Shown one piece after another: positions 23,401 to 59,608 of a stretch of DNA of 64,000 nt (position 1 is the first letter of the stretch; every line of letters begins with the position of its first letter). Below the pieces are notes generated by a model. That model was not told where the DNA came from and did no database searches. It saw only the letters and a list, made by a program, of their open reading frames with translations. The position numbers were made by a program, and so were the translations under genes. Source of the stretch: Paralichthys olivaceus (Eukaryota > Chordata > Actinopteri > Pleuronectiformes > Paralichthyidae); NCBI RefSeq assembly GCF_024713975.1, contig NC_091111.1, positions 20,297,501-20,361,500 on the forward strand, written 5' to 3'.

Positions 23401-26400
23401 AAAATCAGAATATTTTAACTTTTAAAAAGTTAGGTTGTCTTCCAGTCCTCATGCTGTGATAGATCTGCACACAACATTACAAAATGTGTGTCAGCCAAGA
23501 CAGAACAACTGTGTCCAGCTTTAACTGTGTGATGCCTCCATCACTCCACCTGAACAGCAGGATCTGAACATCTCTGGTCAACCATGGTTTCTGATTGTTT
23601 ACAGTATTGTCAGCACAGTATTTGACGGAGCTGAGTACAGTCGTAGTTTACTCTTCCAACAAAAACAATTCATGCAGAAGCGACTGAGGTCAAACTCGAC
23701 CAGAAGTCATCTCCAGAGAATAAGTTCTGTGTTAATGTTTCCTTCACAGAATCTATCAGGAAATCCCAGTGGTTCTCAGTGGTCAGTTGCTACAGAACAA
23801 TCAAACTGACCTTGACTCCACATTCATGGTGTGTAAATATACAAGATGCTGCAACCATTAACTTCATCAGCCAAAAAATAAACATTGTCCATGTTGATGT
23901 TTGTATTTGATTCTTCTGCAGCAGTTAGAGGAAAACATTATCCAATATATGAAAAACCAGCTGAAGAGATTCCAGAGGGCTCTGAGTCCAGACTGCTCAG
24001 AATACACGTACTTAGAGAGCCACTGTGAGGACGAGGGGATGATGTATGAAGACGGTGACGAGCAGAGGAGGAGATGCAGAAAGGCCTTTCTGAGGATTAC
24101 AGTGCACTTCCTCAGAAGAATGAATCTCAATGATCTGGCTAACTCTCTAAAAAACAGTAAGAGACTTTCAAGAGTTGTTTCACCTTTGACCAAACCGGCC
24201 GTGCACTCATGACACCAGAGCTGAGGCCCTGTGACAAGTATTCTTGTTCCAATCAACTTCCTGCCTTGCTCAGCTTGGTGTTTGCTTGTAAAGGACAAAT
24301 TTACCATTTAGAAATCATCTGTAACCACCTGTAATATTATACATATGCATACATATAATGTCTACAAGTATTGTATCAGTACTTGATATGAGCCAATATT
24401 ATTATTAAACATAAGTGTTTATTTTAATCACTTTACTTGACTCTTCTCTTATTGGTTTCATTTCTTCTTTACTCAGGAACCAGAGCTGGGGTGTGCCAGC
24501 GTAAACTAAAGTCTAAGATAAAAAATAAGTTCCAGTGTGTGTTTGAGGGGACCACTAAAGCAGGAACCCCAATCCTTCTGGATCAGATCTACGCAGAGCT
24601 CTACATCACAGAGGGAGGGACTGCAGAGGTCAACAATGAACATGAGGTCAGACAGATTGAAACCGCATCCTGGAATCCAGACAGAGCAGAGACAACCATC
24701 AGACAAGAAGACATCTTTAAAGCAACATCTAGAAGAGACAAACCAATCAGGACAGTGATGACAAAGGGAGTGGCTGGCATTGGGAAAACCGTCTTAACAC
24801 AGAAGTTCACTCTGGACTGGGCTGAAGACAACACCAACCAGGACATACAGTTCACATTCCCATTCACCTTCAGAGAGCTGAATGTGCTGAAAGAGAGAAA
24901 GTACAGCTTGGTGGAGCTCGTCCATGACTTCTTCACTGAGACCAAAGAAGCAGGAATCCGGCGGTTTGAAGAGTTCCAGGTCGTCTTCATCTTCGACGGT
25001 CTGGACGAGTGTCGACTTCCTCTGGACTTCAGAAACACAGAGATCCTGACCGACGTTACAGCGTCCAGCTCAGTGGATGTGCTGCTGACAAACCTCATCA
25101 GGGGGAAACTGCTGCCCTCCGCTCGCCTCTGGATAACCACACGACCTGCAGCAGCCAATCAGATCCCTCCTGAGTGCGTGGACCGGGTCACAGAGGTCAG
25201 AGGCTTCACTGACCCACAGAAGGAGGAGTACTTCAGGAAGAGGTTCAGAGATGAAGAACAGGCCAACACGATCATCTCTCACATCCAGAGGTCACGAAGC
25301 CTCCACATCATGTGCCACATCCCAGTCTTCTGCTGGATCACTGCTACAGTTCTGGAGGACGTGTTGAAGACCAGAGAGGGAGGAGAGCTGCCCAACACCC
25401 TGACGGAGATGTACATCCACTTCCTGGTGGTTCAATCCAAATTGAAGAAGCTCAGGTATCATGGAAGATCTAGGCAAGATCTACATTGGAATTCAGAAAA
25501 TAGAAAGACAATTATGTATCTGGGAAAACTGGCGTTTGAGCAGCTGCGTAAAGGAAACCTGATCTTCTACGAATCCGACCTGACGGACTGTGGCATCAAT
25601 ATCAGAGCCGCCTCAGTTTACTCAGGAGTGTTCACACAGGTCTTTAAAGAGGAGCGAGGCCTGCACCAGGACAAGGTGTTCTGCTTCGTCCATCTGAGCG
25701 TTCAGGAGTTTCTGGCTGCTCTTCACGTCCATCTGACCTTCATCAACTCTGGAGTCAATCTGATGTCAAAACAACCAGCAGCATCTCGGTTACACAGAGT
25801 CTTTAAAGACAGAGTTAAACTAAAAGAGCTCTATCAGAGTGCTGTGGACAAGGCCTTACAGAGTCCAAATGGACACCTGGACTTGTTCCTCCGTTTCCTC
25901 CTGGGTCTTTCAGTGCAGACCAATCAGAAACATCTACAAGGCCTGTTGACAGAGACAGGAAGTAACGGACAGATAAAAAAGAAAACAGTCCAGTACATCA
26001 AGGAGAAGATCAGTAGTCAGAATCTGTCTACGGAGAGAAGCATCAACCTGTTCCACTGTCTGAATGAACTGAGTGATAGTTCTCTAGAGGCGGAGATCCA
26101 ACAGTCCCTGAGATCAGGACCTCTCTCCACAGAGAAACTGTCTCCTGCTCAATGGTCAGCTCTGAACTTCATCTTACTGTCATCAGGAAAAGGTCTGGAG
26201 GTGTTTGACCTGAGGAAGTACTCTGGTTCAGAGGAGGCTCTTCTGAAGCTGCTGCCGGTGGTCAAAGCCTCCAACAAAGCTGTGTAGGTGGATGAATACA
26301 ATGATGATACAACAATGTGATTTTTGACTTTGTCACAACTAAAACATGTTCTTCATCACATGCTCTTCTTCAGGTTGAGTGGCTGTAACCTCTCAGAGAG

Positions 26401-36860: not shown

Positions 36861-36891
36861 GGTTTGAGGAAGAGGATGAAGATGGTGGAGG

Positions 36892-37986
36892 ATGAAGAGG
36901 AGCCGTGGACACGCTGCGGCCGGTAAACCGGAGACAAACACGGAAACCTGTCGGAACAACTTTCCCCGGGACACAGTGGAAGTCCGGGGCCGCAGGTGTG
37001 GAGCAGGATCCCGGGTCATGGTGCGGCGTGGCGGGGCCGCGGAGCCGCTGAGGCCGGGGTCCGGTCACATCAAGAGACCGATGAACGCCTTCATGGTTTG
37101 GTCCCAGGGCGAGAGGAGGAAGATCATGGAGCGGTCCCCAGACACGCACAACGCCGAGATCTCCAAGCGGCTCGGGAAGCGCTGGAAGATGTTGAAGGAC
37201 ACCGAGAAGACCCCGTTCATCCGGGAGGCGGAGCGGCTCCGGCTCCAGCACATGGCCGACTACCCGGACTACAAGTACCGGCCCAAGAAGAAGCCCAAGA
37301 CGGACGGCTGTACGTTTCCTGCGGGGAAGCCAGCCGCTCAGTCCCCGGAGAAAAGACCCGCTCAGAAAAACTCCGCCAAGAAACTGTCCAAGTTAAAGTC
37401 CGGTAAAGCGGCGGCGGGTCCCGGCAGAGCGAGCAGCCGCCCCCCGCAGCCCCCGGACCCCCGGTACCGGTACGTGTTCACCAGCAGCTTCAAAAAGCTC
37501 GTTAAACGGGAGTTCACCGATGATGAGGAGGATGAAGACTCCGAGGAGGAACCGGAGCTGAGAGTGGAGGAGGACGACGATCCGTCCCGCTACAACCGGA
37601 GCCTGTGCTCCGCCGAACCGGAGGGAAGCGGCCGCCTCTTCTACAGCTTCAAGAACATCACCCGCCAGGGCAGCGGCTCCTCCGGACACCCGGCCCCCCT
37701 GTCCCCCTGCTGCGGGGAGGACCCGGACCATCTCCCCGCAGTTGGGAGCGACTACACCCTGAGCCTCGTGGCCGAGCTCCACGCCTCCTCGGAGCCGTGG
37801 AGCTCGTCCTGCAGCCCGGGGAACCTGAGTCTGTCTCTGGTGGACAAAGACTTGGACTCGTGCAGCAGTGAGGGCAGCCTCGGGTCCCACTTTGACTTCC
37901 CGGACCACTGCACCCCGGAGCTCAGCCAGATGATCGCCGGAGACCGGCTGGAGGACAACCTCTCCGACCTGGTGTTCACCTACTGA
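36892..37986 (+). CDS. sox11: SOX11-like SoxC HMG-box transcription factor (single exon, divergent)
   Basis: SoxC proteins are nuclear HMG-box activators in neural and skeletal progenitors. The HMG box (about residues 58-136) begins [20 protein letters not shown] and ends [16 protein letters not shown] mid-region acidic stretch ([13 protein letters not shown]) and the block [11 protein letters not shown] follow. The C-terminal transactivation end carries [32 protein letters not shown] and SDLVFTY, the SOX11 rather than SOX4/SOX12 version. Length is 364 residues against 441 in human. The HMG box differs from vertebrate SOX11 at about eight usually fixed sites (K to Q, I to G, M to T, I to T, K to Q among them). 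The usual MVQQ leader with CSPVALDES and DWCKTASG is absent. The start is uncertain: ATG 36892 gives a normal-length leader, ATG 37018 (MVRRGG) is an alternative. A short overlapping uORF starts at 36876. It could be a lineage-specific SoxC duplicate. Confidence 0.85.
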
Positions 37987-47450: not shown

Positions 47451-47576
47451 CGTCTTCATGTAAACATGACTGAATGTGTTTGTCTCTTTAAAGACAAACA
47501 TTCTCTCTCTAACCTGACGTCTGACCTTTGTCTTCCAGCCTCCCGTTGATCTCACTGACAAACTTCTGGAAACATC

Positions 47577-50500
47577 ATGACCACCGCTGACGAGCTGCTG
47601 GACCAGATCTTCTCCTGGATCGAACAGAGGAGGCGCTGTGCGGACCAGCTGATCAAACTGGCCGTGGAGCTAGAGTCCCTCACGCAGAAATGTAAAGGTG
47701 GTGAATGTGTGGGCAGCTCGGTGGCTGTGGTGGGGGCTGCGTGTGTGATGGGCGCAGGCATCACTTTCCTCACTGGCGGAGCAGCTGCTCCATTTTTAGG
47801 TTTGTTAGGATCAACATATTTAGGAGCAGGTGCCATCATCTCTATAACAGCTAAACTCATCGAGCACTTCATGTCCAGCGACACCATGAAAGATGCAAAG
47901 AAAATTGAAGAGAACAGCAACAAATGTGCAAGAAACATTCAGCAACTGTTCGAGAAACTAAAGGCTGAAAAGACGGCAGCGAACAGATTCCCCAATCCGG
48001 ACGATGTGGACAGACACATTCTGACTGACATTCTGAGAGCTGTGGCGAGACGAAGTGGAGTGAGGACGAAGATCGACTTCAGAATGGTCGGCGACGAGCC
48101 GTATTTGTCTTTTGGTGGAGGGCCACAAAACCTGGCGTGTGATCCCATGTTAGGCCACGGCATCGGCCACAGCCTCCCTATAATGGTGACAGCCGCTGGA
48201 TTTTTAACAATTTTCACGCTCCGCGCCAGTGGGAAGAAATGTAACTTTTTGTTTGCTAAAGGAGCTCAGCAGCTGATCAAGGAAATATCTGTGACTGGAA
48301 TGAAAACAGTGCTCAAAGGAGGCAGCATGGTGAGATCAACTTCCTGTATTCACACACTTCTCTTATTCCTTTCTTAAAGCTCCAGTGAGTCAGATTCAGG
48401 TGAAAGGATCTATCAGCAGAAATCTAATGTAGAATCATCCTCATGATGTTTTCACGAGTTCGTTTCATCTAAATTATATGAATTGTAGTTTTCTTTACCC
48501 CAGAAAATACCTTTTATATTTAAACACTTTATATTTACATACTTTATATTTATATACTTTATATTTACATGGAGGGGACCCTCTCTACAGAGGCCTCCAT
48601 GTTCTTTACATTAGTCCAGACTGAACAAACTAAAACCTTTTGAGTTTTGATGACGACTGAAGCTGCCGCAGGTTCTTCTTCATGTTTGGAAGGAGGGGGG
48701 GAGGGGAGGGGTGTTCAGCTGCAACATGACACTTCACCACTAGATGTCACTGAATTCTACACACTAGACCTTTGATTGAATGTTTTTAATGAAGGATAAT
48801 TTGATCATCTGATAATTAATCCTTTACTGATCTGTTTCCATCAATCATCAGGTTGTGGGAGGAGCCATTGGAATGGCATTTGCACTTCCTGAGGCGATCG
48901 ACAACTGGACAGACCTGATCAAGAACAATAACGTGACTGAAGCTAGCCAATCCCTGCGAGACACAGCCAAGGCGATCAAAAAGATGACGCGGACCCTGAG
49001 TGATCAGTTTGAAGATATGAAGTAAGTGATTCTCAGTTTCTGCTCCTGCAGGTTTGTTTCCTCAGGTAAAGAGCTGCAGCGGGAGTCCGACAGGTCAACA
49101 CGTCCAAACCACTTCTACAATGTGACCTTCACCTCTCATCAGTTTGATCAATATTCTTCCATGTTGTGTTGGTACATCAGGTTTTGATGCAATTTAATAG
49201 AAAAGCATCATCATTTATAACTGCAAACCAGCAACCACAGAGCAACACCTTAATGAAACCTGTTAGCAGCTAAAGCTGTTTTCAGGCGTGTTCCTCACGT
49301 GTTCTGTCTGTGAGAACTAATGTCAGTGTCTCTGGACATTTTCTGGAACTTTTCCTGCAGCCTCTAGTAAAATTTCAGAGTGACACCAGAAACTTTACCA
49401 AGTTCCCCTGGTATTTAAGCTGGACACCACAGCAACCACCTAGCAAAATCCTGTAGCAGCCAATTAACTAACTGTCAATGATGAATTTTTGCATCATCAC
49501 ACCTTCACATCCTAATTGATCTATTTTCATTGTCACCATTAATAACTTATTATAATTCACTGCCTTATTTGCGATATAATATATTCATTTTTCAGTCATT
49601 ATGTAAAGTAAAGCCTCACAGAGCTCAGTTATTACATTTTTATTCCAGGTGCTGAAACTTTGCATCTGTAGACTGCTTTGTGATTTAAAGGCAGTATTGG
49701 CTGAGGTGTGTCCCTGAGGTACGGACTCTCAGGGTTTATATGACATAGGCTGAAGAACCAAACGTACTATACCTTTCAGTCCCTCCTCCGGCATGGCAGC
49801 AAACCAAGCATGACCATGCAACACCACCTGGTGGCTAAACTAGACACCGTGCAGCAACAAGCTTGTGACCAGTCAGACAACTCAAGTCACTGTCCTGTAA
49901 ACAGACAAACATCCAGCTCTTACAAGAGTTTGCTCAACACAACTGGTCATTTATACGTGGGTTTAGCACAGTGCAGTAATAGAGCATTTGTATCTACAGC
50001 AGATATGCAGCAGGGGGCACTGTTGTCAGACACACAGCAAGAGCCAGAAAGAAACATGGTCAAACAACCAGATTCAGATGCTCTAATAAAATCAACCTAG
50101 AGTAGATAGAAACGCCAGCTGCCCTAAAACAATGCTACCCTAAAGTACAGCAACAGTATGTATAACCAACTATAGCTGCATCCACTTATGGCTAAAGCTA
50201 GCAGCATCTGAGTGGACAAGGAAGGCAACGACAATCAGAGAATTCTCTATTTCAGTGTAAAATGTGTTTGCAGTCGTGCTAACTGGACCTGTTTTATTCA
50301 CAGGCGGATGCTTGAGGAGATGGAAAAAGAACAACGTGAGCACAAGGAAACTTTAGCCAAAGTTAAGCGCAGCATTGAAAACCCAGAGAGAAGCTTTGAA
50401 GAGAAGCAAATATTATTAATGTTTGCCATGAAAACATGCCAGAATGAACAGGTGCGACAATGGCTGAGATGGAATTCAGGGTCGGAGACTTTCTTCAAAC

Positions 50501-52680: not shown

Positions 52681-55600
52681 TCAGGTGCAGTAAAAACGTC
52701 CGTCGTCGACTCTCCTTCTCTTACGACTCTGCTGCTGCTCAAAGAACAGACGGATGTCATCAGGGGTCACGACCTATCAGAGAACAGTCACATGACATCA
52801 GAGGTCACGACCTATCAGAGAACAGTCACATGACATCAGAGGTCACGACCTATCAGAGAACAGTCACATGACATCAGAGGTCACGACCTATCAGAGAACA
52901 GTCACATGACATCAGAGGTCACGACCTATCAGAGAACAGTCACATGACATCAGAGGTCACTGACCTATCAGAGAACAGTCACATGACATCAGAGGTCACT
53001 GACCTTTCCTTCAGCTGCAAATGTCTGCAGAAAATCCTTCAGTTCAGTTTTCATGTCGTTGTACCCTGAAACAAAAGAACACAACAAACAAAATGTGTAG
53101 CACTTGTAGTTCCAGGTGTACTTTCACGTATAGTACTTTTAATTTCATTTGTAGTACATGTAGTTTTAAGTGTAGCACTTGTAGTTCCAGGTGTACTTTC
53201 ACGTATAGTACTTTTAATTTCATTTGTAGTACATGTAGTTTTAAGTGTAGCACTTGTAGTTCCAGGTGTACTTTCACGTATAGTACTTTTAATTTCATTT
53301 GTAGTACATGTAGTTTTAAGTGTAGCACTTGTAGTTTCAGGTGTGGTAGTTTTTCTTACCATGGATGATCTCGAGTTGCTGCACTCGGTTCAGGTTGTCG
53401 AGTGCTGACATCAGAGGGTCGTGTCCTTGTTGCTTCTGTTCGTTGTTTTTTCCTTTTCTCTCGTAGGCGAGGACGGTGTCCGACTCGTCCAATAAGAAGG
53501 ACAGATTAGCTTGTGACAGAAGCTCCTGAGGACAGACACAGAACAGTTACACACTGAAGTCTGGAGTGATGTGTTCTGGTTTTTTAAGTTCTGAGAGAAA
53601 CGTGTTTGAAGATGTTCACTTTGTCTGCAGAACGCACAGATGACAGGTGAAGACTGACGTGCTAACAGGTCGTCAGTGACGCCACCGGCAGTTTTTTTTA
53701 CACGTTGTCATGTTGCTGTTTGCTCGTAGTTTAGTCACAAACATTTAGATCATTTAAAAATCCACCAGTCGCTGTGCGGTTTGTACTAAACTATGTGTTT
53801 ACGTCATGTGACATGTTCCATCGATCAAATTAGTCAAATCATAAGCCTATGACCTCACACTGACATCATGAGTGCGTCAGCCACGTTACCTGGCAGCCGG
53901 TGCAGGAGCAGAGTTTGGAGCGCCACCCTGACGGCCAGAACACAGCCCCCGACCGGAGTCTGTTCTGACCAGTCCTCTGCGGTTGCTTCAATCTGCAGCT
54001 CGACTCCGCCTCCTCGCGACTCCGCTTACTGCTGGGCTCGATGACATCATCCACCTGATCCACCTTATAGGTCGTTCATCAGTGACATGCTTCAAAAAGA
54101 ATGGTCGAGCGTACATGAATGTGAGCCAGTGGAACCCTCTCACCTGTGGTTTGTCAGGAGCATCGGTGTTTGATTCTCCTCCTGTCTCCTCCTTCACCTG
54201 TGCCGCTGCACCTGAGACTGAACAGGAATTACGTCACATACAGGAAACACGTCACACGGCAGCTGTGAGTCGGTGACTTACCTGCCAGCAGATCAGCGTA
54301 GGTCCACAGGAAATCATTTTTATTCATACACAGCTCACAAATCATCTCCTGCAGCTCGACACAGTCGGGAATCACACAGCCCAGGTGCTGCAGGTACAGG
54401 TGAGGTCAGTGAGGGTTGACCACCAGGGGGCACCACAACAAGTACACGGCACCATTCAGATTATTTAATTAAGAAAGTGTGGAGTGTTTGTTTGAGTGGA
54501 GTTGCAGTTAGAGCACAGGACTTAAAGGTACAGTGTGTAGAATTTAGTGACATCTAGTGGTGAAGTGTCATGTTGCAGCTGAAAGTATGTAAATATAAAG
54601 TACATAAATATAAAGTATGTAAATATAAAGTACATCAATATAAAGTATGTAAATATAAAGTACATAAATATGAAGTATTTAAATATAAAGTACTTAAAAA
54701 TAAAGTATTTAAATAAAAAGGACATAAATATAAAGTATTTAAATATAAAGTACATAAATATAATGTACATAAATATAAAGTATGTAAATATAAAGGACAT
54801 AAATATAAAGTATTTAAATATAAAGTACATAAATATAAAGTACATAAATATAATGTACTTAAAAATAAAGTATTTAAATATAATGTACATAAATATAAAG
54901 TATTTAAATATAATGTACATAAATATAAAGTACATAAATATAATGTACATAAATATAAAGTATTTAAATATAAAGGGTCTTTTCTAGGGTGAAAAAAACA
55001 ACAATTCATACTATTTAGATGAAACACACGAGTGAAAACATCATGAGGATTATTTTATATAAAATCTTCCACCTGAATCTTCCACACTGGACCTTTAACT
55101 CATAACACCTGTTTGATGACTTTTGTCTAAACCTCCTCAGGCAAAGCATCATGGGAGGTAACATGACTGCAGATGTACTGTTGTACTCACCCTGCCGTGC
55201 AGCCAGTCCTCACACACCACACACTGAATCATCTCGTCCTCCACCTGGAGACCAAATCAGCCAATCAGAGAGAGACATTCAGTGGCGAGCAGAGCTCACC
55301 TGGGGGTCTGCTGAGAGGCTGTGGTGTCTCACCTGGTCGTCGGGGTCTGGATAAGGTCGGCTGCAGGTGCAGTAAGCTCCAAAGAAGTTGTGACTGTATT
55401 TATTCAGACTGTTGACCTCGTCTTTATCCTGAAACACACCACTCGTGTTTAACGAGCTTTGTGGGGACCAACCATTAACAGACGTTATAGGGACCTGACA
55501 GGTGTTTATGTATTTATGAGGACGCCAGGTAACAGATTCTTCTGCCATGTTTGACCCATGATGAACTGATGTTTATTTGAAGTATAACTTCACTTCTGAA

Positions 55601-56474
55601 TCTGACTCCACCCACTTCTAAAACTGACCCAAGGTCCAAGATGGTTTAAAACACCAGGTGGCGTTATGAGCCATGTTCAACCCTTGAACAGCTGATAATA
55701 AAAATGATACTAAAACCATGAACGTGTTAAATCAGTTTACAGCTGAAAAACACGTGTGTTCATTTCATTTGTGTCATTTTACTGGATGTGGACTAACAGG
55801 ATGGAGTTTACACTGCAGCTCTGTGAACTTCCTGTTTCCACAGTCACAACGAAAGTTCCTGCAGAAACAAACAAACAGAAGAAAAAATAAAACAAACAAA
55901 CAATAATATTTATTTACAAACACAGTTTCAGTTCTTTTATCATTTATTCTGGTTCATTGATTTACGGAGCGTGAAAATATTGTTATTACCACCACAGGTT
56001 TACGTCCTTCACATGTAAACAGCACATGGCTCAGATGGTAACTCACATCTGTCTGAGGACGATATTGTGGACATATTGATCAGGGATTCAAAGTGTCCTG
56101 ATGATGTGTTTGCTCACCTCTTGGTGTAGAGTTCAAAGAGGTCGTGACCTTCATGACATTTATATGAACACGCCAAACACACTCCTGCTGCTTCTCCACC
56201 TTTTGGTGTACAAGTGTTACAGGCGTACAGAGCTTGACGCTTCACGTAGCCCTGAAAAAACACACGCACACAGTGTGTTACCCTCTCTAATAATAATATA
56301 ACAATATTAATAATAACTGGCTGGTGCCACCTGCTGGTCATTGTGTGCAATGCGTACCTGGGGGTAGGAGCAGTGATCCGAGTCACTTCCTGCCAGAACA
56401 GCTGAAGCTTCTTCCTCCAGCTCCTCATCTTCCTCCAGAACATCAACCAGAGACACCGTCTGCTCCTCACACAT
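52681..56474 (-). CDS. ubr7: UBR7, UBR-box/PHD-type putative E3 ubiquitin ligase
   Basis: UBR7 is a UBR-family protein with a PHD finger, reported to ubiquitinate histone H2B in human cells. Eleven coding exons are placed: 56346-56474 (MCEEQTVSLVDVLEEDEEL), 56120-56253, about 55796-55859, 55341-55430, 55190-55243, 54281-54390, 54144-54218, 53891-54063, 53362-53526, 53005-53069 and 52681-52773. The UBR box spans exons 2-3 (YACNTCTPKGGEAAGVCLAC; NFRCDCGNRKF). The PHD finger spans exons 4-6 (FFGAYCTCSRPYPDPDDQ; MIQCVVCEDWLHGRHLG; MICELCMNKNDFLW). The tail includes WPSGWRSKLCSCTGCQ and ends KRRRVDDGRFYCT. All family cysteines that can be seen are kept. A non-coding first exon probably ends at 57706 (CG|GTGAG). 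It is head to head with gon7, as in human. Confidence 0.95.
52774..53003 (-). repeat. ubr7 intron 10: exactly six tandem GT...AG units
   Basis: Read on the gene strand the 230-bp intron is two 39-bp units beginning GTCAGTGACC and four 38-bp units beginning GTCGTGACC, all ending CTGTTCTCTGATAG. 2x39 + 4x38 = 230, so the array starts on the donor and stops on the acceptor with nothing left over. Exon 11 begins GTCGTGACCCCTGATGACAT, then CTGTTCTTTGAGCAG, a diverged seventh copy. Confidence 0.93.
53090..53345 (-). repeat. 75-bp minisatellite in ubr7 intron 9
   Basis: Just over three copies of a unit containing TGTAGCACTTGTAGTTCCAG, GTGTACTTTCACGTATAGTA and TTTCATTTGTAGTACATG. The period is divisible by three, so all frames look open. 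Confidence 0.93.
54520..55100 (+). mobile_element. MITE-like dispersed repeat, copy 2, with expanded internal array
   Basis: It starts TTAAAGGTACAGTGTGTAGA and ends TCCACACTGGACCTTTAA, giving imperfect terminal inverted repeats. Internal words match 48372-48775. It lies in ubr7 intron 5. Confidence 0.8.
54585..54978 (+). repeat. 14-bp minisatellite (TAAATATAAAGTAC) inside the MITE-like repeat
   Basis: About 28 copies of TAAATATAAAGTAC and TAAATATAATGTAC, with TTT and ATG variants. The paralogous element at 48372-48775 has only about four. Confidence 0.95.
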
Positions 56475-57706: not shown

Positions 57707-58400
57707 GGGTCCAACCGGGACCAGACCGGAAGTAGAAACAAAATCTTGTCCGTAGAGTCTGTAGAGCGGCCGATCAACTGATCAATAACCAATAATAACC
57801 AGTGATAACCAACAATAACCAACAATAACCAACAATAACCAATAATAACCAGCTCCGTCCGATGTCCAGAGGATCACAGCTTTGTTGTCAAACTACTTGC
57901 CACATTTGGCTGATGATAACTTCCGGTTCATTTCCGTAGGTCGCATTTGGCGGTAATCTAAAACTAAAATTGGCGGTAATCTGAGTCACAGGTCATCGAA
58001 TTAAAAAAGTGATTCAGTCAAGATAAAGAATAAAAAGATTAAAACCACAGAGTGAACAGATTCAACTCGAGAAGACAAATAATAAACAACTCACAAGACA
58101 AATACAAATCTAAAAACTCATCAGGGTCACACACGACAGATCAGAGTGCTGCCTCTAGTGGGGTGATATGGTACTGTGGGCTCTTGAAGGTTTGATAGTG
58201 CCATGTATTAATGTATTAATGTAGGTGAGGAGAAGTTTACATTCTAAATGTGACAGGAAGTCAGTGTAGAGAAGCTAAAACAGGAGACACGTGGTCTCTG
58301 TTCCTGGTTCATATCAGGACATGTGCTCTACTCAGTGTTTCTATGACTGGATTTTACGTAAGGTACTTGAAGGCAACAGAGAGTGCGTGATGACGTCATA
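57707..58400. promoter_or_regulatory. Head-to-head ubr7-gon7 promoter interval
   Basis: ETS-type sites occur near 57726 (ACCGGAAGT) and 57920 (ACTTCCGGTT). A duplicated TTGGCGGTAATCT (57947 and 57971) follows. A short TAATAACCAA array lies at 57786-57850. No coding sequence. Shared or separate TSSs cannot be told from sequence. Confidence 0.5.
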
Positions 58401-58580
58401 ACGATGGCCGTGTCGCTGTTAGCGGAGCTGAAGCGTGATGACGTCAGTAAAGATGGCCGTGTCACTGTTAGCGGAGCTGAAGCGTGATGACGTCAGTAAA
58501 GATGGCCGTGTCGCTGTTAGCGGAGCTGAAGCGTGATGACGTCAGTAACGATGGCCGTGTCGCTGTTAGCGGAGCTGAAG
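58387..58580 (+). repeat. 49-bp tandem repeat carrying a CRE and the gon7 start codon
   Basis: Four palindromic CREs TGACGTCA at 58391, 58439, 58488 and 58537. Each is followed by ATGGCCGTGTC, with ATGs at 58404, 58453, 58502 and 58551. Only the last ATG leads into the gon7 frame. Confidence 0.95.
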
Positions 58581-58886
58581 CTCAGAGACAAACACACACA
58601 GAGAATCTGCGTTCAAGTGGAACATGACCTGAGTTCTCTGATTGACGGAATAAAGGAGCTGAACGTGAACGTGTCACAGATTCTCAGTGAACTGGTCGAG
58701 AGAGAGAGAGAGAGAGGAGCCTGCGGACCTGGTCAGTTACCTGATGCTAACACCACCGAGAGAGAGAGGGAGAGAGAGAGAGAGACAGAGAGAGAGGACA
58801 GACAGAGAGAGAGAGAGAGGACAGACAGAAAGAGAGAGAGACAGAGAGAGAGAGACAGAGAGAGGACAGACAGAGAGAGCGAGAGC

Positions 58887-58917
<31 letters not shown>

Positions 58918-58954
58918 GAGCCTGCGGACCTGGTCAGTAACCTGATGCTAACAC

Positions 58955-58985
<31 letters not shown>

Positions 58986-59608
58986 GACAGACAGAGAGAG
59001 AGGACAGACAGAGAGAGAGAGGACAGACAGAGAGAGCGAGAGAGGACAGACAGAGAGAGCGAGAGAGAGACAGAGAGAGAGCGAGGAGCCTGCGGACCTG
59101 GTCAGTTACCTGATGCTAACACCACCCAGAGAGAGCGAGAGAGAGACAGAGAGAGAGAGCGGGGGCAGAGAGAGAGACAGAGCGAGAGAGAGAGCGAGAG
59201 GGCACAGAGAGGACAGAGAGAGAGAGAGAGCGATAGAGAGAGAACTCCGGTTGTACTGAATGTATATAATATATATGAAGTCTAGTTTATTTGATACAGT
59301 TGATGCGTAGTCACGTGTGTGGTGATGTAGCTTTAAGAAAAAACAAACTGGTTCCTACAAGGTTCACATGTGGAACCAGCTCTGAACCAGTTTGACTTTG
59401 GTGGAAGTTTTTTTTCAACCTGTTGATGTTTTATTGACGTCATAGGTAAACTGAGCAGCTGTACACCACAGATCCGTGTTAGATGATGTCACATTCACCT
59501 GTTTTACCTGCTGCAGGTGAGGAAGACGAGGACAGTGATGAAGGCAGTGATGAAGACGAGTCATCAAAATGTGAGAGACAATGTCCAGCCAAAAGACTTA
59601 AACCATGA
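58551..59608 (+). CDS. gon7: GON7, subunit of the KEOPS tRNA t6A complex
   Basis: GON7 is a small, partly disordered KEOPS subunit that binds LAGE3 and supports N6-threonylcarbamoyl-adenosine synthesis on tRNAs. Exon 1 (58551-58731) encodes MAVSLLAELKLRDKHTQRIC and then EHDLSSLIDGIKELNVNVSQ, matching the only folded part of the human protein. Exon 2 (59517-59608) encodes EEDEDSDEGSDEDESSK and ends PAKRLKP, like the human acidic tail ending SAKRPKTPS. The join keeps frame (CCT G|GT GAG), giving 90 residues against 100 in human. Position beside ubr7 and lyset agrees with human 14q32. AATAAA follows near 59712. ATG 58536 in the same frame would add MTSVT. Alternative donors are discussed in the findings. 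Confidence 0.88.
58695..59250 (+). repeat. GA-rich array containing duplicated gon7 exon-1 ends
   Basis: (GA)n with GACAGACAGAG words and three copies of GGAGCCTGCGGACCTGGTCA (about 58716, 58917, 59085), each followed by CCTGATGCTAACACCACC. Most of gon7 intron 1. Confidence 0.93.

Follow-up and report, generated by a model that had tools for sequence, protein, structure and literature searches.

How can the coding sequence of a gene come to serve as one of its introns? Two papers on the subject state that, for most new introns, it is unknown where the sequence comes from (PMC4974935, PMC3443670). In a ubr7-like gene of Paralichthys olivaceus, the last intron, intron 10, is built of tandem repeat units, and the gene's own coding sequence seemingly supplied it. 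Because the source and the copies lie side by side, the likely steps can be read from the locus: the copied segment, the base that improves the donor, and the whole-unit count. Each transcript carries six identical acceptor modules, which makes the intron a natural setting in which to ask how the spliceosome selects one of several equal 3′ splice sites, and whether a repeat that contains splice sites can gain or lose copies at no cost. Here, we ask where the sequence of this intron came from and how it might be removed from the RNA. All coordinates are positions in the window, that is, the whole stretch of 64,000 nucleotides that was analyzed (NC_091111.1, 20,297,501-20,361,500).

Results

Gene Model and Probable Identity

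The gene model, which is based on reading-frame continuity and splice sites, lies at 56474..52681 on the minus strand and gives a frame of 378 amino acids over 11 exons. The predicted protein contains a UBR-type zinc finger (Pfam zf-UBR, E 6.3e-13). Residues 112-180 weakly matched the plant proteins EBS and SHORT LIFE in a PDB search, and both of these proteins carry PHD fingers. The name UBR7 was taken from this UBR box, the EBS and SHORT LIFE match, and, in part, what we take to be the make-up of the human protein. The minus-strand gene is probably a fish ubr7-like gene; the initial assignment to ubr7, made from the sequence-only reading, is supported at this level by the zinc finger together with the 378-residue frame over 11 exons.

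The PDB search returned eight sequences, whose best stretches were within residues 31-180 and did not cover the C-terminus, and the last 106 residues showed no Pfam match at or above the cut-off. Therefore, the conservation of exon 11 rests on human UBR7, in which we assume a similar VV..DI..FFE stretch at the place where exon 11 starts. Relatives were also sought in two collections without animals, where none was expected: the last 106 residues gave 82 pattern matches in genome_contigs and the 378-residue protein gave 122 in viral_contigs, none of which was confirmed.

Intron 10 interrupts the frame at a phase-0 junction, and the smallest intron in the model is 64 nt. The borders of exon 3 (donor log-odds −1.06) and exon 8 (acceptor −7.39) are uncertain, which leaves intron 10 unaffected. 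Exon 10 (53004..53065, minus strand, 62 nt), placed by reading-frame continuity and splice sites, ends in GAAGGAAAG, and the coding part of exon 11 in the model comprises 93 nt to the stop codon (52681..52773, minus strand).

Anatomy of Intron 10

Intron 10 (53003..52774, minus strand) is 230 bp long, the exact sum of six minus-strand units of 39, 39, 38, 38, 38, and 38 bp. Unit 1 (52965..53003) and unit 2 (52926..52964) have the same 39-bp sequence, GTCAGT...TGATAG, and the first of them provides the donor AAG|GTCAGT. Unit 3 (52888..52925), unit 4 (52850..52887), unit 5 (52812..52849), and unit 6 (52774..52811) are 38 bp each and read GTCGTG...TGATAG, the end of unit 6 being the acceptor TGATAG|GTCGTG. 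The six units are identical save for one additional A, the fourth base of units 1 and 2, which gives GTCAGTG compared with GTCGTG in units 3-6, and each runs from GTC to TGATAG. The first 39 nt of exon 11 (52735..52773, minus strand), encoding VVTPDDIRLFFEQ, are a diverged seventh copy and the likely source; this segment ends in a cryptic acceptor, GAGCAG|CAG. We numbered the borders from 0 (exon 10 to unit 1) to 6 (unit 6 to exon 11). All seven read AG|GT, the outer ones being AAG|GT and TAG|GT. These results confirm the sequence-only reading in two respects, namely, that the intron is six GT...AG units without remainder and that every unit border is AG|GT.

TRF reported an array at 52739-53005 (period 38, 7.0 copies, 96% matches). 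All of intron 10 is inside this block, which on the donor side takes in no more than the terminal AG (2 nt) of exon 10 and on the other side reaches 35 nt into exon 11, and there is no non-repeat intron sequence between exon 10 and unit 1. Five of the 38 possible rotations of the 38-bp unit begin with GT, and one alone begins with GT and also ends with AG; this one is used at both ends of the intron.

It is very unlikely that the copy number or the unit identity is partly an artefact of assembly. Near-identical short copies are easily collapsed or expanded; however, an array of 230 bp is well within a long read, and the two 39-bp units are found together on the donor side.

The unit border, GGTCAGTGACC, is nearly palindromic. 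RNA folding of intron 10 together with exon 10 and 60 nt from the start of exon 11 predicted a long hairpin of paired units. However, 8 of 100 shuffles folded equally well (z = −1.48), and nothing was built on the hairpin.

Similarity of the Units to the Start of Exon 11

When aligned with the first 39 nt of exon 11, the 38-bp unit was identical at 31 of 38 pairs, with one gap (82%). The global score of 22 was reached by none of 100,000 dinucleotide shuffles (maximum 15), and among the 1,098 CDS 39-mers scanned, the start of exon 11 alone attained it. The local score was 23 compared with a best value of 15 elsewhere in the window, as scanned on both strands in 60-base windows with steps of 20 after masking the array and the exon 11 start. 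The earlier proposal that the repeat derives from exon 11, with which it was said to be about 80% alike, was thereby upheld.

Random synonymous versions of the 13-residue peptide reached a score of 22 in 2 of 20,000 cases, and their mean was 9.7 compared with 0.6 for the shuffles. The peptide by itself thus accounts for some of the similarity, which is what copying of the unit from coding DNA would produce. The frame of exon 11 is open and both unit types contain stops, so the simplest reading is that copying went from exon 11 to the intron, a direction that the presumed VV..DI..FFE stretch of human UBR7 would also favor. The extra A is missing from exon 11, and the frame of exon 11 requires its absence.

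It is extremely improbable that intron 10 is an ordinary intronic minisatellite that owes both its likeness to exon 11 and its limits at the splice sites to chance. Such arrays are plentiful here, as TRF arrays make up 21.8% of the window (positions 1-64000; 86 rows in 45 clusters), and introns 5 and 9 of the ubr7-like gene hold arrays that stop short of their splice sites. However, the similarity to exon 11 is far above that of the shuffles and the best in the window, and the array is adjacent to exon 11 and in register with it. Chance resemblance was rejected on the basis of the shuffles and the window-wide scan.

Other Arrays and Genes in the Window

The 45 array clusters were represented by their best rows, and nine with a period below 9 were dropped. 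Five of the remaining 36 contain AGGT on either strand. The distance from the outermost AGGT border to the array edge was smallest for the ubr7 array (2 bp) and ranged from 4 to 21 bp for the other four, one of which is inside ubr7 intron 9. The intron 9 array at 53095-53344 has 3.3 copies of a 75-bp unit with 99% matches, and both splice sites are outside it.

A second array derived from a coding-exon edge was observed at 58385-58581 (plus strand), head-to-head with the ubr7-like gene. It consists of four 48/49-bp units, each with TGACGTCA, a start codon, and about ten codons of a gon7-like ORF, and its upstream ATGs open ORFs of 27, 27, and 41 amino acids. The gon7-like ORF itself starts at 58551 (plus strand) and matches Pfam DUF4611 (E 3.9e-08, 33.8 bits compared with a cut-off of 32.1), which we take to be the GON7 family. 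As judged by eye, a GA-rich expansion in the gon7-like gene (58700-59260, plus strand) has three copies of a segment that includes CCTGGTCAGT and CTGATGCTAAC; this gene, too, thus has a repeated donor-like GTCAGT site. Further long open frames on the plus strand are at 24428-26287, 36880-37986, and 47559-48377; by eye, these presumably encode an NLRC3-like NACHT protein, a SOX4/11-type HMG protein, and an apolipoprotein L-like protein, respectively.

Predicted Splice Signals

Splice sites were scored by simple log-odds with consensus frequencies, not by MaxEnt, and U1 pairing was calculated as a duplex with the U1 sequence. The donor of exon 10 (border 0), AAG|GTCAGT, scored 4.38 with a best U1 duplex of −7.3 kcal/mol, and the start of unit 2 (border 1) gave 2.88 and −7.2 kcal/mol as a donor. 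At borders 2-6, where units 3-6 and exon 11 begin with GTCGTG, the values were −4.28 and −4.0 kcal/mol. By consensus score, plausible donors would be present at the first two of the seven borders only, the remaining five being GTCGTG. It had been stated that each unit starts with GTC(A)GTGACC, and the units do share this start, but the wording hides that the better donor is found at just two of seven borders. The extra A lifts the donor score after AAG from −2.77 to 4.38 and is confined to the two donor-side units; thus, it seems to be the change that renders this donor usable. A further GT inside each unit, CAT|GTGACT, had a donor score of 0.79, above that of GTCGTG.

For the other nine donors of the gene model, scores lay between −1.06 and 8.71 and U1 duplexes between −1.5 and −12.1 kcal/mol. 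Donor 3 (−1.06, −1.5 kcal/mol) pairs more weakly with U1 than the inner borders do (−4.0), and acceptor 8 scored −7.39. A low score is therefore not proof of disuse, since these two sites of the same gene model score badly.

On the acceptor side, the unit ends (borders 1-6) are identical and scored 1.38. Each unit contains a branch-point-like CTGAT whose A is 24 nt before the unit end, with no AG between them. The exon 11 segment starts with GT, ends with CAG, and holds the same CTGAT 25 nt before the CAG as well as a pyrimidine tract, indicating that each copy has most of the signals of an intron. GAG stands just before this CAG, hence the doubled acceptor end. The cryptic acceptor at 52735 (minus strand), GAGCAG|CAGCAG, scored 6.21 compared with 1.38 for the modelled acceptor, and its use would remove 13 amino acids in frame.

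The sequence-only reading had further proposed that units may be removed stepwise. In recursive or dual-specific splicing of this kind, the inner AG|GT borders would act both as acceptors and as donors, which we consider decidedly unlikely here. All seven borders do read AG|GT, and the portions considered of PMC10809524 report dual-specific AGGT sites in the human UBC repeats with an RT-PCR ladder, as well as a synergy that lets weak sites be used. Borders 1-6 also share one acceptor. However, by score the usable donors would be at borders 0 and 1 only, borders 2-6 remaining at −4.28, and single-unit steps of 38-39 nt are below the 64 nt of the smallest intron in the gene model. When exon 10 is joined to unit 3, 4, 5, or 6, the product AAG|GTCGTG scores −2.77, compared with 4.38 for the original donor, with a best U1 duplex of −4.1 kcal/mol. 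A recursive site is one where joining restores a functional 5′ splice site, and by consensus score borders 2-5 do not do so. Among the inner borders, only border 1 re-forms GTCAGT after joining, and this requires a 39-nt intron. On these scores, stepwise removal past the first unit or units appears unlikely, because the re-formed AAG|GTCGTG is a poor donor and a 39-nt step is shorter than the 64-nt intron.

Reading Frames and Predicted Consequences for the Protein

Only one of the 21 border-to-border splices, from border 0 to border 6 (the donor to the last acceptor), keeps the 378-residue frame. The other 20, and likewise the absence of splicing, lead to a stop after 352 amino acids (...EGKVSDL) or 355 amino acids (...EGKVVTSDVM). 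In these truncated forms, 4 or 7 other residues take the place of the last 30, which include the basic tail SRKRRRVDDGRFYCT. The acceptors at borders 2-5 are 78, 116, 154, and 192 nt from the donor, which is far enough by the intron standard of this gene; a ladder of products is therefore predicted. A better reading of the inner borders is that they are decoy acceptors and that splicing to them would truncate the protein. If an acceptor upstream of border 6 were favored, full-length mRNA might be a minority product.

These considerations also bear on the earlier suggestion that the number of copies is free to change with no effect on the mRNA. As far as the scores go, this is doubtful, because each added unit would bring one more identical, competing acceptor and 20 of the 21 border pairs end in stops. 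The unit copy number is probably not neutral.

Discussion

From the anatomy, the similarity to the exon, the donor asymmetry by score, and the reading frames described above, we infer an origin, an order of events, an older intron, and a mode of use in the RNA. We lean toward the explanation that intron 10 consists of copies of the exon 11 start, that an older intron was lost by deletion, that the donor was repaired by the extra A, and that splicing is mainly a one-step process, and we hold it with slightly more confidence than doubt. The minisatellite would have a single source, the first 38-39 nt of exon 11, copied in tandem. A pre-existing intron would have ended at AG|GTCGTG before the exon start was duplicated, and the copies would probably have been formed by tandem duplication beside the AG|GT exon junction, the AG being common to the breakpoints. 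The old intron content was then probably deleted between its own AG|GT donor and the AG|GT border of a copy, so that whole units only would remain. An A may have been inserted near the start of unit 1, thereby changing the poor donor GTCGTG to GTCAGT, and may then have spread to unit 2. In the RNA, most splicing would join border 0 directly to border 6, the inner borders being identical decoy acceptors and not recursive sites.

Alternatively, intron 10 may be a truly new intron, an origin that is possible but somewhat unlikely. Here, the ancestor would have been intronless at this position, an exonic tandem duplication would have taken place at the proto-splice site AAG|GT, and later copies would have lengthened the product (the Rogers model). 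This mechanism is documented in the portions considered of PMC4974935 and PMC3443670. It fits with exon 10 adjoining unit 1 without non-repeat intron sequence and with the AG common to both breakpoints, and an in-frame 39-nt copy of VVTPDDIRLFFEQ would perhaps have been tolerated before splicing arose. However, a fresh copy would begin with the weak donor GTCGTG. Moreover, vertebrates very rarely gain introns and keep the positions of those they have highly stable, and the human UBR7 gene, which we take likewise to have 11 exons, would make the intron position old. The stability of vertebrate intron positions favors the old-intron route over a new intron.

A wider claim can be attached to the refilling of an old intron with exon 11 copies through deletion between AG|GT sites, namely, that the number of units sets the share of tail-less UBR7 and that this share differs between individuals. 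We regard the claim in this full form as unlikely; if it is true, unit number would tune the share of UBR7 without the basic C-terminal tail.

The general kind of intron seen here is known, both as introns made by duplication and as repeat introns of whole units. Intron creation by tandem duplication of an exonic segment bearing AGGT is an accepted model with many cases, according to the portions considered of PMC3443670 and PMC4974935. Among the cases are ATP2A1 (Hellsten 2011, as cited in these papers) and potato RdRp (PMC4974935). Similar to these two cases as described there, intron 10 is a tandem copy of the adjacent exon with AGGT at both borders, although it has six units and not a single duplicate. 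In fission yeast, the gained introns SPOG_01682 and SOCG_00815 have 24-nt tandem units that extend into the neighboring exons (PMC3629103). The proto-splice sites of these units are given as AGGC in the portion considered of that paper and as AGGT in that of a later one (PMC4974935). Intron 10 likewise has repeats whose similarity reaches a neighboring exon, whereas its units are 38/39 nt and an inserted A improves the donor on one side, which differs from the fission-yeast introns so described. In Cryptococcus, repeat expansion resulted in intron polymorphism by multiplying pre-existing introns, as stated in the portion considered of PMC2395259.

Within the titles and abstract openings covered by our literature search, no vertebrate intron of exactly this form and no paper on UBR7 intron 10 were found, and none of the matches listed for UBR7 exon 10/11 mentions UBR7. 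Human repeats that duplicate the splice site of an exon-intron border include CBS 844ins68 and the CBS 31-bp VNTR, as well as the 37-bp VNTR in factor VII intron 7. These repeats are not known to make up the whole intron, unlike the units of intron 10.

The class of introns described by Duan et al. 2024 (PMC10809524), as far as the portions considered go, comprises 77 human introns that are whole multiples of a repeat unit with dual-specific splice sites, 8.4-fold over expectation, and that are proposed to arise by repeat expansion. As in those introns, both ends of intron 10 are at the same point of the unit, AG|GT, and the array spans both splice sites. Under their rule, the length should be a multiple of the consensus length, and with the TRF period of 38, the 230 bp of intron 10 equal 6 × 38 + 2. 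Taken literally, the rule would therefore leave intron 10 uncounted. In substance, intron 10 agrees with the class, since it consists of exactly six units, two of which are 39 bp. Unlike in UBC, where the units are described as coding, in frame, and either kept or removed, the units of intron 10 are 38/39 nt and contain stops, only one splice gives the full protein, and there are two plausible donors by score. Intron 10 belongs with the known introns as described in these sources and differs from them in that its units are non-coding and break the frame, in that its acceptors are equal and its donors unequal, and in that the whole intron is repeat.
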